DNA of 56,422 nt. It comes from a virus. The stretch covers positions 1 through 56,422 of the IMG/VR virus record IMGVR_UViG_3300032288_002536; one strand, 5' to 3'. Below are positions 5,970-56,422 of the stretch, in pieces (the stretch's first letter is position 1; each line of letters starts with the position of its first letter). The notes under the pieces were generated by a model. That model saw nothing but the letters and a program-made list of their open reading frames with translations. It was not told where the DNA came from and searched no databases. The position numbers and the translations under genes were made by a program.

Positions 5970-8900
5970 ATGTCGAATACTAAAAATTCATTCTCATCTC
6001 TGATAGCTCAGTTCCTTAGACTTCAAAAGAACTCTCTGGAAATTATAAACAAACTAAATGATGTTACAACATCTCCTAATGATTCTGTAGAGATAGAATT
6101 TTTAAAAGATGATAATACTTCGGAAAATATACAGGTTCCGTCTTTTGGTTTTTTAAAATCCGAGATTAGCAGATTAGACGAGAATATAAAAGCTTTATCT
6201 GGTCTTGAAGATAATAGGGCTAATATTAGAAATGCTGATGGAACAGTTGCTAAAATATATCAGGCAACAATATTAAAAGATCCATCATCTCCTTCAAGTC
6301 TTCAAGTTCCTTCAACATTCCAAGCAAGAAATAATTGGTTCTTTGAGTCTTTTTTAAATCCATTGCTTTATATTGAAATAGACGTTGAAAATCAGATACC
6401 AGCAAATTCAGAGAACGTTTACGTTAAAAGAATAATAGCTAATACACAATCTGATGTTCAAAAGCAGTATTTTGATAATAATCTAAAGGGGAGAAACGAT
6501 ATCACAGATTCTGATTTTATAGCATCTCTAGAAAGTCAAGGAATACAATATTTTGTAGATGAGCAGATAAACAATTTAGATCTAAGAACTATAAGATATA
6601 CAGGATCATTTGGAGTTCTTAGAATATTTGACGAGGAGGTACAAACCACAGAAAATGGTATAACCACTACAACTACTGTTAGAAAGTATAAGCTAAATGG
6701 AATATCTTATAGTGATAATCTTGCAGATACAACTAACTCTAGAACTCTAGCTAAAGGAGATCTTTTAATAACCCCGGGTTCAACTAAGTATGAGATATCT
6801 TCTATAGATGTAAGCAACCAAACTGTTGTATTAAAAAGAATATTTGGATTTGAACCAATACAGATAGGAAGTACTTCATTAACAATCTATTCCAACGTAC
6901 TTTCAAATAGACAGGTAGAGGTAAATGTTGGATTTGATGAAAGACAAGCTGTTTTTATTAAATCCATCGACGGAGATTTTAATGTTGCTTCTAGTAAATA
7001 TAGTCCAGGTATTTGTTTCTGGTCTAACGAACTACAGATAAACACTTCAGATGGTGTTAAAACTTTAGAATCTTTCTATAATTCTCAGGTGTCTGATTTT
7101 GGTAAAATATTTATAGCATCTGCCAAGGAGAATACAATACCTGCAGTTTATGGACAGACCCCTTCTGCTCCCGTTGTTTCTGCTACTAATTTTAAAGTTG
7201 TAAAAGTTAATGCTCAAGTAACTGATTCTAAGGAGAGTACAAATTTTAAGGATAAAATAAAAATCAAGACAACCCTTAAAAATGAAATAGACTCAATAGA
7301 TAGAGCGATAGATCAAACTAGAAAACAACTATCAGAGCTAACAACTACATCTAGTGCAAAAATACCTACTGCAGAATTTAAGAAGCTTAACGATAAAATA
7401 TCTACCTTAACTAAAGATAAAGGAACAAAAACGGATCTTCTATCGACAACAATAAGCGATATAAACAATCTTGTTATAGCTACCCCAGAAATCACAGAAG
7501 CTCCTAAATATAGAGTAAGAGGATTTTGGCCTATACCTGAACCAATATTTGATCCTAAAACCGGAGATCAGAACATTATACAATTTAATATAAGGTACCG
7601 ATATCTTTCAATGACTGGTAATCCTAATGGAACAGATCAAATAGATTATGTAGATAATAACGGGGTAGCAAAAGCTGGTCAGTTCAGTAACTGGGTTCAA
7701 TTTAAAAGCGATTTAAGAAAGAAAGTATACGATACTAATACTGGAACATATATTTGGCAAATTGAGGACGTTAGCGATGCTAATACTGTAAATATAAACC
7801 AGTTAGATATAGCTATAACAAAAGGAGAAAAGGTTGAAATACAGGTTCAGTCTATTTCAGAAGCCGGATGGCCAAGCAATGCTTTAACTTCTGACTGGTC
7901 TACATCAGCTATAGTTGAATTCCCACCTGATCTGGTTGTATCTGTGGATAATTCATCATTTGTTGCACAGAATAGTACTGATAGTGCAGTAGTTAAGGTT
8001 CAGGAAGATCTACAAGCTAAGGGATTAGACCAACATTTATCTACACAATTTACATCTGGGGATAAATTTTATGCTCACAATTCTTCAGTTATTGCATCGG
8101 GATTCTTCGACGCATCTGGTAAGGCATTAGATCTTTTCCAGAAATTAACACAGATAGACAACGAATTACAATCTCTTAGAGCTCTTATTGCTAAAGCTAA
8201 AGGAACCCTTGGAGTTTATATTAGGTCAGGTAACACATCAAACAAGATTAATAACGGAAGTACGGTTAATCTTTTTGCAGGATACTACGATGATCTAATT
8301 GATCTTTCTAACACTAGCAACAAAGGAAAAATAGCTACTGTTATTTATTATTTAGAACTAAAGAACGAAGCAGCAACCCCTCTAGAATTATCATCACTTA
8401 TACCTGGAGGACAAGGAGTTAAAGCACCTAACTCTATAGCAGGACAGGCTGATTATAATAATAATAGAAAATATGGAGATACACCTATTCAACTATCTGG
8501 TATAGTTGATGCGAATGTTAATGTATCCACTCCTGGAGCATTTATACAATCCCCTGGTTATCAGAGTGCTAACGCGTATTCTCAGTTTGTATATAACAGA
8601 TACAAAAGTGTGGGATTAGACGAGGATCTTTATTTTACCCCTCCAACTTCACTATCGTGGAATATTAGCAATGGTACTTCAGGATTACCTATAAATAATG
8701 ATGGTATAATAATGCCGTTCGATCCACCAACATCTCCTTCGGGTGCGGGTGCTAATTCAAATGTATGGAGTGGAACATATACAGGGTCAACTCCAGATGG
8801 TAACGGTAATCTTAATGAATTTTGTGTTCATGTATCTCACCCTGATATAAATGATGGATCTGTATCTAACTTTACTTCGTTAGTTAGACCTTCAGTTTTG

Positions 8901-30494: not shown

Positions 30495-30503
30495 TAATAT
30501 CCT

Positions 30504-33160: not shown

Positions 33161-33502
33161 ATGCCAGCTGTATCTAGAACACAACAGAGATTAATGGGAC
33201 AAGCCCACGGTGTTCGTAAATGGATGGACACTAAAGGAAAAGAGGGAATAGATCCTAAAGATATAAAGTCTGCATACAGAGAAACTATAGTAGAGATAGC
33301 TAAGAATATGAAAAAGAAAGCTCTTAGTGATTATGCTCATACCAAGCATAAAAATCTTCCTGAGGAAGTAGAGGAAGGAGAAATACCAACAATAGTTCCT
33401 TATCTAAATCCAGAATCTAATAAACCAAAAAAATCTAAATCTGCTAAGATGCAAAATCTGGCTGATTATAGGGAATTTATATCTAATAAAAGAAAAAAAT
33501 AA
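33161..33502 (+). CDS. MPAVSRxQQRLMG-type small protein with C-terminal tag-like motif
   Basis: 113 residues. The N-terminus (PAVSRTQQRLMGQAHGVRKW) is the conserved start of small phage proteins resembling DUF3008. It is followed by a helix and an acidic stretch with Pro. The C-terminus, NLADYREFISNKRKK, looks like the phage's tag (Y-x-x-F-I-S) at the opposite end of the protein and lacks the Glu. It may be a head-associated or core protein; function not known. Confidence 0.55.
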   Translation: MPAVSRTQQRLMGQAHGVRKWMDTKGKEGIDPKDIKSAYRETIVEIAKNMKKKALSDYAHTKHKNLPEEVEEGEIPTIVPYLNPESNKPKKSKSAKMQNLADYREFISNKRKK

Positions 33503-33503
33503 T

Positions 33504-33980
33504 ATGAGCGAAGTAAACGAAGACTGCGGATGTGGAGCAACATCAAATAATATTAGAAGCTATAATTCACATATTGCTTCTAAATATGACCAGGATCCAT
33601 TAGTTGGGAAAAGAGTTTCTTTAATAGATGGAAGGAGTGGGATAGTTGATGATTCAATAAGAAACAGTACGGGTGAAGTTATTGGATATGTGATTGAGGG
33701 TGATCGTGGAATGTATAGGGTTTTTAAGGACAAGATAGCTTCTCAAATAGAAGAAGGGGGTGGAGCTATGGCTTCACTAGCAGGAACCCCTGGAATAGGA
33801 CCTATAGTTCCTCCCGGTCCAGGGAAAACTGGATCTGGGGATCAATTTCCCAGTTTAAATGTGGGAACACCATCTGCTAGAAAGAAAAAGAAAAAGGTAT
33901 CTAAGGAGAACCCTAGTCCTATAAGTAATTCATTAATGGATTTTAAAACATTTATGAACAACACTAAAAAGAATCAATAG
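33504..33980 (+). CDS. head-associated protein candidate with Cys pair and C-terminal tag-like motif
   Basis: 158 residues. Starts MSEVNEDCGCGA (C-x-C). Residues 30-85 form a small beta barrel-like SH3-type stretch (KRVSLIDGRSGIVDDSIR; GYVIEGDRGMYRVFKDKI). A Gly/Pro-rich stretch AMASLAGTPGIGPIVPPGPG then GSGDQFPSL is of a kind I have seen repeatedly in myovirus proteins, though I cannot name the family. A Lys run and SLMDFKTFMNN end the protein, again resembling the F-x-x-F tag. The stop codon lies inside the following hairpin. Confidence 0.5.
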   Translation: MSEVNEDCGCGATSNNIRSYNSHIASKYDQDPLVGKRVSLIDGRSGIVDDSIRNSTGEVIGYVIEGDRGMYRVFKDKIASQIEEGGGAMASLAGTPGIGPIVPPGPGKTGSGDQFPSLNVGTPSARKKKKKVSKENPSPISNSLMDFKTFMNNTKKNQ

Positions 33981-35767: not shown

Positions 35768-37174
35768 ATGATCATCGATATTGAAAATACAGGGAATGGA
35801 TTAACGGTTTCACATTATACTGAGGAAGGAGAGGTTAACTTATTAAAAATCCAAGTTCCTAAAGCTTTACAATTCGTATGGCAGAAAACATCGGAGTCGG
35901 ATAAGAATAAGGATAAAGAGTGGAGATCTTGGGATGGATTTCCCATAAAAAAAGTATCGTCAAATAAATTCGACAAATATAGGGTAGTAGAAATACTTGA
36001 AGCTATAGATCCTGAAGTAACCAAACCTTTGTGGGATTATCAAATACCTAAAAAATACTTTGTAGATATTGAGGTTGAGATCACTGATAACAGAGCGGAT
36101 TCTTTAGACACCGAAGGGGCTAGAAACAGAGTTCTTTCTATAGGTATGGCTTCCTCCCAGGGTAAAATACTTGTTATCGGTCTAGAAGATATGTCACCAG
36201 AGAGGATATTGAAGATAGAGAAGAGAATAAAGGATCATTTTAAGGAACATCCAATGGGTTGGACTTTCAATTATAGGAAGTTTGAAACCGAGTTTGATAT
36301 GCTCTATACCTTTATGTCTAAGCTAATTCATAAAATGCCTCTTATAACAGGATGGAACTGGTTCGGATATGACTGGCCTTATCTGATTAACAGAGCTAAG
36401 AGATTGGGTATAGATCCTAGGATATGTTCACCTAGCGGAATACTAATAGGAAAGAATCAGATACCTATGCACATACTTATGGTTGACTACTTGGACATCT
36501 ATAAAAAATGGGATAGAGTAATTAAAATAAGGGAATCTAATTCATTAGACTATGTGTCTAATCAAGCGATAGGGATCAAGAAAATTGCATACAATGGTAC
36601 TTTAAAAGATCTTTACGAATCTGATTTTGAAACATTCATATTCTACAACGCAGTTGACTGTGCTCTGGTCCACTATATAGATAAAAGACTCGACACCATC
36701 TCTACTTTCTTTAAGATTGCGGAAGTTAGTAGAGTTGAAATAAACAGAGCACTTTCTCCTGTTTGGACAACAGAAGTACTTATGCTCCGTAAGTTTATGG
36801 AAAGAAAACAGATAATCATAAACGAAAGGAAGGAGGAATCACATGTTAAGTTTGAGGGTGCTTATGTAAAGAAACCTGAGAGGGGCTTATACGAATGGAT
36901 TGCTTGTTTTGACTTCGCATCCCTATATCCAAATACTATGATGCAATGGGGAATATCCCCGGAAGTTTTTATAGGTAAGAATCTTAAAGAAATACCAGAA
37001 GGTGCAATAAAAACTTCCTCTGGTGCGGTTTTTTACAGTAAGGAGGGAAGAGAACCGATTCTTAGAGAAATATTACAGGATCTATATTCGCAGAGAAAAG
37101 CAACAAAGAAGAAATATTTTGAGTGTGAGAAAGAAATAGAAAAAATTAAAAAAACAATAAAATCAAAATCATAA
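35768..37174 (+). CDS. 43A: DNA polymerase family B, N-terminal half (exonuclease, motif A)
   Basis: 468 residues. T4 gp43-like order: N-terminal domain, ExoI FVDIEVEI (Asp100, Glu102), ExoII NWFGYDWP (Asp202), ExoIII FYNAVDCAL (Tyr293, Asp297), then palm motif A CFDFASLYPN (Asp382). The protein ends at about where the fingers begin, after a Lys/Glu-rich helix (QRKATKKKYFECEKEIEKIK then KTIKSKS). It therefore lacks motifs B and C, which are in the gene at 54195. All exonuclease acidic residues are present. The two halves must reassemble to polymerise. The next gene starts two bases downstream. Confidence 0.92.
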   Translation: MIIDIENTGNGLTVSHYTEEGEVNLLKIQVPKALQFVWQKTSESDKNKDKEWRSWDGFPIKKVSSNKFDKYRVVEILEAIDPEVTKPLWDYQIPKKYFVDIEVEITDNRADSLDTEGARNRVLSIGMASSQGKILVIGLEDMSPERILKIEKRIKDHFKEHPMGWTFNYRKFETEFDMLYTFMSKLIHKMPLITGWNWFGYDWPYLINRAKRLGIDPRICSPSGILIGKNQIPMHILMVDYLDIYKKWDRVIKIRESNSLDYVSNQAIGIKKIAYNGTLKDLYESDFETFIFYNAVDCALVHYIDKRLDTISTFFKIAEVSRVEINRALSPVWTTEVLMLRKFMERKQIIINERKEESHVKFEGAYVKKPERGLYEWIACFDFASLYPNTMMQWGISPEVFIGKNLKEIPEGAIKTSSGAVFYSKEGREPILREILQDLYSQRKATKKKYFECEKEIEKIKKTIKSKS

Positions 37175-54194: not shown

Positions 54195-55364
54195 ATGGAG
54201 GAGATAGATTACATGTCAATGAGCTTGGAAGAGCTCAATCTAAAACTCCTTGAGTACCAAAAAAAATCATCAGATTTTTATAATACTGAACAGGGAATTA
54301 AATTAACTCTTAACAGTATATACGGAGCGACTGGAAATCAGTACTTTGCTTTATTTAATCCTGATGTAGCTGAAAGCACAACATTACAAGGACAGGACAT
54401 ATGGAAGTTTGCTGAGAAGATAATCAACAGATACTTCAATGATATGTGGCATCTTGATACAGAGCTCCATGAAAAAATGGAGGTGAGAAATGTCAGACAG
54501 CTAAGTCTTGATTTTATCATTTATGGCGATACTGATTCCAACTATATAAATCTTGGTGCTGTAATGGATTCGTGTGAATTCGATTATGAGCCTTTTGAAT
54601 TTGTAAAGAGACTTAACGAGCATAGATTAAAGGAGTATATTAAAAAGTGCTATGACATCTACTCTAAAAAATGGAACACTGAAAACTATCAAGATTTTGA
54701 GCTGGAAAGCTTATCTTATGCTGGGATATTTTTAGGAAAGAAAAAATATGTACTCCATATTGCTTGGCAAGATCCTAATAAAGATTTATTCCCTAGACTT
54801 TCTAAAATAAAATCCACTGGTATAGAATTAGCTCAAGGAGGAACCGCTCCATTTGCAAGAGAAAAACTCACATTCCTATTAAGACACATTTTTGAAAAGG
54901 GTAAATCTTTTGACATAAGAGAATTTGTTAAAATCCTAAAGGAGATAAAGAATGAGTTTAAAGTTCAAAGCCCAGATCAGATATCTATAGGAACGTCCGT
55001 TAATAACATAGAGAAATTTATAGTTAATGACACTTCTAAATTTGAGGTAGCTAAGGGATGTCCAATGCACGTTAGAGCTGCTGGATATCATAACTATATA
55101 CTAAACAATTCCAAATACAAAGCTAAGTACAGCTTAATAAGATCGTCTGAAAAAATTAAATACTATTACGTTAAAGTTAATAGTGAGAGGGAAAATAATG
55201 TCTTTGGATATCTTAATGGATCTTACCCTTATGAATTTGCTCCTCCTGTTGATTTTGATGAGCAATTCAACAGAGTTATCCTAGATCCAATCAATAGATT
55301 TATTGAGGCAATGGGATATTCACCTCTATCACCTAATCTACTATTGGTAAGGGCTTTGTTTTAA
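54195..55364 (+). CDS. 43B: DNA polymerase family B, C-terminal half (motifs B and C, thumb)
   Basis: 389 residues. The N-terminus is an acidic helix (MEEIDYMSMSLEELNLKLLE). Then come motif B KLTLNSIYGATGN (Lys36, Asn40, Tyr43), motif C IYGDTDSNY (Asp112, Asp114) and KKKYVLHI, a likely KKRY-type motif. A thumb domain follows. The C-terminus MGYSPLSPNLLLVRALF resembles the clamp-binding peptide of gp43. The protein lacks exonuclease and motif A, which are in the gene at 35768. There are no intein residues at either end. It lies right behind the clamp gene. Confidence 0.92.
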   Translation: MEEIDYMSMSLEELNLKLLEYQKKSSDFYNTEQGIKLTLNSIYGATGNQYFALFNPDVAESTTLQGQDIWKFAEKIINRYFNDMWHLDTELHEKMEVRNVRQLSLDFIIYGDTDSNYINLGAVMDSCEFDYEPFEFVKRLNEHRLKEYIKKCYDIYSKKWNTENYQDFELESLSYAGIFLGKKKYVLHIAWQDPNKDLFPRLSKIKSTGIELAQGGTAPFAREKLTFLLRHIFEKGKSFDIREFVKILKEIKNEFKVQSPDQISIGTSVNNIEKFIVNDTSKFEVAKGCPMHVRAAGYHNYILNNSKYKAKYSLIRSSEKIKYYYVKVNSERENNVFGYLNGSYPYEFAPPVDFDEQFNRVILDPINRFIEAMGYSPLSPNLLLVRALF

Positions 55365-55376
55365 TATCTTTTTGAT

Positions 55377-55384
55377 GATATATA
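55377..55384 (+). promoter_or_regulatory. GATATATA late-promoter-like element
   Basis: Ends 20 bases before ATG 55405 of a tagged gene, in the 40-base gap after the polymerase half. Confidence 0.42.
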
Positions 55385-55404: not shown

Positions 55405-56160
55405 ATGCCAGGAAGAATTAAAAATTTTAGTCAATTCATTAATGAATCCAATAAAGTAGGGATTAATGAGGGATTCATATCGAGTTTAAAAAAATATGGA
55501 TCTATGGCCATTGGATGGTCTTATCAGCTTTTAAAAAATATAATAAATGGATTAATTGCTCCTATTCCCTACGGTCCAAAAAAAGGACTTCCTACCATTA
55601 TGCTTTTTATACCTGAGGCTGGCCCGATAAGTTCACAGATTGCTAAATTTGAAATGGGTAGAGATCCTTTAAAGGAAGCAGAACTTCCATTGGAATATTC
55701 AAAGGAATATGATACAGAGAGTTCTGATTTAGAAGATCCGTCTGAAAGTATAGTAGAATTGTATAATAATAAATATTATGGAGATGCCTCTAAAAATATC
55801 TTCATAGTTGATAAAAATGATACTGAGGGAGGAAAGAGCGTAGGAAAGGCTGGTGATAAATTAGGGATACCAGTTTTGATGATGGAGTTTAAATACATAG
55901 ATCCTAGAGATATTATAAAGGACGGATCACTAACAAATTCCGGAATACTTCCTACTGACAATGGGAAAGATAATAGGGGTGGTATTATATTTATAAATCA
56001 AATGGATAAGGGCGATTCTAATCTAAAGGGATACTTTACCAATCTTTCTAAATATGGGGAATCTGATGGATACTATCTTCCTAGCAAATGGATTATAGTT
56101 GCATCGGGAGAAAACCCAGATATGGTAGGGGATATCTCTTCATTCGAACTTAAAAAATAA
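55405..56160 (+). CDS. tagged degenerate MoxR-type AAA protein
   Basis: 251 residues. Starts MPGRIKNFSQFINESNKV: F-x-x-F-I-N-E-S tag. The second half resembles a MoxR-type AAA module: P-loop-like NDTEGGKSVGKAG (first Gly missing), DKLGIPVLMMEFKYIDPRDI, Walker-B-like GGIIFINQMD and YYLPSKWIIVASGENP, the sensor-1 region. The usual Walker B reads hhhhDE, but here it is I-N-Q, so ATP hydrolysis is not expected. The protein ends soon after sensor 1 with no lid or arginine finger. It may be a packaged pseudo-ATPase or decoy of a host complex. Confidence 0.6.
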   Translation: MPGRIKNFSQFINESNKVGINEGFISSLKKYGSMAIGWSYQLLKNIINGLIAPIPYGPKKGLPTIMLFIPEAGPISSQIAKFEMGRDPLKEAELPLEYSKEYDTESSDLEDPSESIVELYNNKYYGDASKNIFIVDKNDTEGGKSVGKAGDKLGIPVLMMEFKYIDPRDIIKDGSLTNSGILPTDNGKDNRGGIIFINQMDKGDSNLKGYFTNLSKYGESDGYYLPSKWIIVASGENPDMVGDISSFELKK

Positions 56161-56177
56161 ATTAAATAATCAATAAA

Positions 56178-56422
56178 ATGGGAATGACTTTCGACGAATT
56201 TAAAGTAAAAGGAACTGAATTTGAAATGGATCCTTTAACAACATCAACTAAATCACTAGGATCTGGGGTTGATGAACATTTTGTAAATCTATTGACTTTT
56301 CAGATGCAGTTAAAAGTTATGCACTGGGGTACTGAATCATACGCTCAACACAACGCATTTGGATCTACATATAGTGATATAGATGATGGATTGGATGCAC
56401 TGGTTGAATCATATCAAGGATA
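56178..56422 (+). CDS. DUF5856-like/ferritin-like protein, partial
   Basis: 81 complete codons, cut by the window edge. Starts MGMTFDEFKVKGTEFEMDPL, which includes a tag-like F-D-E-F near the start. The helix FVNLLTFQMQLKVMHWGTES followed by Y-A-Q-H-N-A-F and YSDIDDGLDALVESYQG fits the DUF5856 family of phages, four-helix ferritin/Dps-like proteins. Conserved His, Glu and Asp are in place. A18-base A-rich leader precedes it. The C-terminus is unknown. Confidence 0.6.
   Translation, partial: MGMTFDEFKVKGTEFEMDPLTTSTKSLGSGVDEHFVNLLTFQMQLKVMHWGTESYAQHNAFGSTYSDIDDGLDALVESYQG

Follow-up and report, generated by a model that had tools for sequence, protein, structure and literature searches.

A head-tagged phage remnant of a MoxR ATPase that has lost its catalytic motifs

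We analysed an open reading frame, P0001 (55405..56160, + strand, ATG start, 251 aa, beginning MPGRIKNFSQFINESNKVGINEGF), in a 56,422-nucleotide viral contig, the whole of which is referred to here as the window, and found it to be a truncated and motif-less derivative of a MoxR gene that is intact in close relatives of the phage. Its common descent with that gene, the deletion that shortened it, the loss of its motifs, the empty site of a second MoxR module and the retention of a head-targeting tag were all shown. With a probability of roughly 0.6, we interpret P0001 as a remnant, dead as an ATPase, of a head-tagged MoxR that the phage itself once encoded in a module of MoxR, DUF2201_N metallopeptidase and DUF2201 VWA genes (module A), and as a protein that is probably still made and packaged.

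Direct searches of Pfam, PHROGs, NCBIfam and PADLOC with P0001 gave no family match, and a scan of IMG/VR viral contigs with its exact peptides or peptide patterns alone gave no relative. The relatives were reached solely via the adjoining DNA polymerase gene, whose C-terminal part (54195..55364, +), a conserved upstream neighbour, served as query and anchor and yielded 15 loci. The polymerase is encoded by two genes 17 kb apart (window 35768-37174 and 54195-55364), as in the related genomes G002 and G005. Right after the polymerase in six close relatives (L002-L006 and L009), where the polymerase is 93–95% identical to that of the window, we found an orthologue matching over the length of P0001; it was complete at ~500 aa in five of them (L002, L003, L004, L006 and L009) and intact up to the contig end in L005. 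The match between P0001 and the intact orthologue had an E-value of 1.5e-63, placing P0001 in the MoxR AAA+ lineage. The intact proteins carry the motifs GAPGIGKT, IIFMDE, AAGNRPE and ALADRF and a C-terminal lid, with Pfam AAA_5 and AAA both above their cut-offs. In L003, L006 and L009, the loci with the best coverage, the MoxR gene is followed by the DUF2201_N metallopeptidase, the DUF2201 VWA and a ~290-aa gene, after which L003 and L006 have a DUF5856-like gene. The L003 metallopeptidase is itself head-tagged (FSNYVRFINES). PHROG 1314, labelled HNH endonuclease, matches the metallopeptidase and VWA genes of L003 (10720-12731), and the label looks wrong for these genes.

Aligned with its intact orthologues, P0001 has lost every catalytic motif inspected. 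An earlier note made from the sequence alone had read its Walker B as I-N-Q instead of D-E, and the alignment bears this out: the former acidic pair is now N-Q (55996..56001, +) within IIFINQ (G-G-I-I-F-I-N-Q-M), where all 13 aligned intact relatives have DE in the hhhhDE pattern. The same note had described a P-loop without its first Gly; the loss is real but larger than that, the whole P-loop being gone, with the relatives' GAPGIGKT (GxxxxGK[ST]) in register with DKNDTEGG at the former Walker A position (DKNDTEGGKS, 55810..55839, +) and the GKS of P0001 two residues out of register. The reported Y-x-L-P-x-x-W-I-I-V-A-S-G region is present and its sensor-1 strand W-I-I-V-A-S-G is retained (56089..56115, +), but the sensor-1 Asn-Arg itself has been replaced by E-N, giving GEN where the relatives have GNR. 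The lid and arginine finger are absent, as the note had stated, because a ~3.5-kb deletion ended the reading frame early, at a point matching residue ~274 of the ~497 in the family, removing the C-terminal ~220 residues. A wide scan gave 59 distinct ORFs, the 35 nearest of which were scored for Walker A, DE and the tag; all 35 have Walker A, 33 match DE and 28 are tagged, and no active family with an N-Q Walker B was found among them. From its sequence, P0001 is expected neither to bind nor to hydrolyse ATP.

Structure prediction, which the note had proposed as a check, returned an AAA fold. The AlphaFold2 model of P0001, whose input alignment included intact MoxR relatives and which is therefore limited as independent evidence of the fold, shows its strands in AAA order, mostly at pLDDT 70–89 across residues ~111–240, and its top PDB matches were all AAA+ proteins, the MoxR protein NorQ (9qh8) among them. 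For the intact form, the closest PDB match of the predicted structure was CbbQ2 (CbbQ, 6l1q), a MoxR ATPase. P0001 thus appears to share the core fold of CbbQ and NorQ, but several of their elements are missing from it: Walker A and Walker B, sensor 1, the arginine finger, the lid and some of the hairpin region that lies between strands 2 and 3. A further 23 residues were deleted in frame between these strands; the corresponding stretch contains a hairpin in the model of the intact form. The inactive, MoxR-type AAA fold postulated by the note is supported by this predicted fold and by the missing catalytic parts.

The truncation was traced by comparison with L003. Homology to the window ends at ~10.06 kb of L003 within the MoxR gene and resumes at window position 56159, which corresponds to L003 13593, so that ~3.5 kb has been lost from the window (3' junction at 56148..56178, +, joining L003 ~10.06 kb to ~13.59 kb). 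The lost segment comprised the C-terminal (lid) half of MoxR, both partner genes and the ~290-aa gene, and the window now reads polymerase, P0001, 17 bases and the DUF5856-like gene (56178..56420, +), a conserved downstream neighbour cut by the contig end. The truncated form was absent from every close relative checked. The junction lies ~270 bp from the contig end, as might be seen if an assembly chimera had made the truncated gene. We regard such an artefact as very improbable: both flanks of the junction are collinear with relatives, the polymerase also directly precedes the DUF5856-like gene in L007 and L008, which have wholly lost module A, and a chimera would leave the lost Walker motifs and the in-frame deletions upstream of the junction unexplained.

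A separate deletion was found in L011, where the first ~70 leader residues run in frame into the final ~75 of the VWA protein (PPFAWLQKEKIIPSVFVYFTDT...). In the tree, L011 was the sister of the intact L003 with 99% support, while the window branched outside L002, L003 and L011 (100% support for the trio, 69% for the next node); given this placement and the different junctions, the deletions in the window and in L011 were independent. The C-terminal part of the L011 polymerase (7845-8828) seems to be interrupted at YGDTD/S by an intein-like sequence ending in FFANHILVHN/S (slashes mark the junctions here and cut sites below).

The relatives checked carry a second module of metallopeptidase, VWA and MoxR genes (module B) ~25 kb upstream of the polymerase. 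A gene-by-gene comparison showed the window to be collinear through this region with G002 and G005, in which the metallopeptidase, VWA and MoxR_B are present, and module B to be cleanly missing between 30494 and 30504 (empty site 30495..30503, unstranded). In G006, G007, G009 and G010, module A has been lost and module B is still present. The intact paralogue that the note had suggested seeking in the same genome exists in relatives, and the 56-kb contig has none; nor does it contain any DUF2201 or DUF2201_N gene, and P0001 has no VWA partner next door. Of the phages in this close group that were examined, only that of the window has no whole MoxR module at one or the other site, although the part of its genome outside the contig could carry one.

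The leader of the protein has fared differently from its active site. The head-targeting tag, IKNFSQFINE at residues 5-14 (55417..55446, +), has the aromatic-xx-F-[IL]-x-E pattern of the capsid-targeting sequence of T4 IPIII (N-terminus MKTYQEFIAEA), in which targeting and cutting depend on residues 4, 7, 8 and 10 (PMC9026906); the equally spaced residues of P0001 are F, F, I and E. It differs from the T4 sequence in lying 4 residues farther from the initiator Met and in being carried by an enzyme-derived protein, whose packaging is predicted. The pattern [FY]xxF[IL]xE occurs at the N-terminus of 5 of the 53 window proteins versus 0.09 expected, and we take the tag noted earlier to be real. 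Its [IL]xE ending predicts a prohead-protease cut after E14 (INE/S, in IKNFSQFINE/S). A second conserved [IL]-[ND]-E/G site, INE at residues 20-22 (55462..55470, +; INEG, LDEG or LNEG in pair-A orthologues), makes a second cut possible. Both an S77 prohead protease and a gp23-like capsid protein, the latter with L-N-E/S near its N-terminus, are encoded by the close relative G010; the window, itself only a genome fragment, contains no member of the S77 or Gp23 family. Two adjoining small proteins of the window (33161-33502 and 33504-33980) have C-terminal tag-like sequences (ADYREFISNKRKK and MDFKTFMNNTKKNQ).

A candidate late promoter, GATATATA, lies 28 bp before the P0001 start (55377..55384, +), and in relatives this position is occupied by GGATATATAA. 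Nine of its 11 occurrences are 10–30 bp before gene starts (window 2823, 15080, 26544, 30486, 32168, 44181, 46917, 50331 and 55377) versus an expectation of 0.21, which was the best result among 280 letter permutations, and all four copies of GATATATAG precede head-tagged genes. The A-rich stretch found before the start in relatives is reduced before P0001, a change that could weaken translation.

We then considered whether P0001 is simply a pseudogene that decayed neutrally after the deletion and is neither made nor used. The lost motifs, the in-frame deletions and the smaller number of A residues before the start are in keeping with this, as is the dispensability of the gene, given that L007 and L008 lost the module altogether. 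The AAA part of P0001 is 31–35% identical to its orthologues versus 83–97% among the orthologues themselves, while the leader (residues 1-98, 55405..55698, +; tag, helix and GLIxPIPxGPKKGxP block) is 48–61% identical to orthologues that share 59–84% and still evolves at near its normal rate. Because unlinked codon fits for each partition were unstable, with saturated synonymous sites, the partitions were fitted jointly under common branch lengths; omega on the window branch was 0.40 for the AAA part versus a background of 0.027 and 0.18 for the leader versus 0.094, with 0.0075 for the polymerase, all of these values being rough since synonymous sites are near saturation. The raised omega would also suit decay, but neutrality (omega = 1) was rejected for the AAA part, with a whole-branch p-value of 5e-5. 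P0001 has no in-frame stop codon or frameshift, whereas neutral drift to 32% identity gave 7.1 ± 2.7 stops and none of 300 neutral simulations remained stop-free.

None of the 12 catalytic residues was kept, as against 21 of the 31 remaining aligned invariant positions (p = 6e-5). Of the 17 hydrophobic positions in the strands, 16 remained hydrophobic, which was matched in only 17 of 2000 neutral simulations; hydrophobic positions taken overall were kept as under drift. The strand core has therefore been preserved while the enzyme was lost. With an open frame and with the strands, the leader and the promoter-like motif kept, the remnant is not plainly neutral, and we consider the pseudogene explanation unlikely, though it is the strongest of the competing ones. 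Had P0001 been only a passenger, stops could have removed its C-terminal 150 residues; that these persist counts against the preferred reading and hints that this region has some use.

Such use could be a binding role. Once packaged, a dead AAA protein might act on a working AAA/VWA system, belonging to the host or to a competing related phage, by binding its VWA partner or subunits. An open frame in which strands and tag are kept and every catalytic residue is lost would suit a protein that only binds, and intact MoxR-VWA modules (MoxR_A/B) are indeed found in competing relatives. We nevertheless think repurposing of this kind improbable. The truncated form is not shared by close relatives, so that no conserved new surface can be demonstrated, the lid and C-terminal half, which help to build AAA hexamers, are missing, and the AAA part is evolving at an omega of ~0.4. 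The C-terminal part having stayed open and folded, some room is left for a blocker, and in its specific form, in which the tagged core was kept after the loss of both modules as an ejected protein blocking the MoxR-VWA systems of relatives or host, we rate this idea as slightly more doubtful still. The earlier note had proposed, more narrowly, that the protein could bind or poison a host AAA assembly early in infection. This is unsupported and seems improbable: P0001 is a degraded orthologue of a phage MoxR that is intact in close relatives and has phage-encoded VWA and metallopeptidase partners there, these partners have been deleted here and module B is missing, and nothing points to a host target.

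Under the preferred reading of an ATPase-dead, packaged remnant, P0001 would be transcribed late and would enter the prohead by means of its tag, where the protease would trim it; it would then be carried as a folded, catalytically idle internal head protein. Selection would chiefly preserve the leader for targeting and the solubility of the fold, with the active-site surface left to drift. P0001 would be incapable of the work of MoxR because it has no ATP site, lid or partners.

A chaperone pair of MoxR and a vWA(metallopeptidase) protein has been described in group 2.2 jumbo phages, and suggested to function in virion assembly, in the MoxR passages of Iyer et al. 2021 (PMC7824862). The intact orthologues resemble that pair, being MoxR AAA+ genes beside metallopeptidase (PF13203) and VWA (PF09967) genes. 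They differ from the pair as described in those passages in that the metallopeptidase and VWA are separate genes and the MoxR and metallopeptidase are head-tagged; the window differs further in keeping half a MoxR gene and neither partner. In the same passages, we found no description of head tags on MoxR or metallopeptidase, of two paralogous modules or of independent losses. A single locus shows module A intact, as two different in-frame remnants and wholly lost among phages whose polymerases are 90–95% identical, and the head tag has been kept in both remnants (the window and L011). The tags on the intact MoxR and metallopeptidase suggest a system that is either active within the head or injected; if so, the published idea of a chaperone for virion assembly would be refined.
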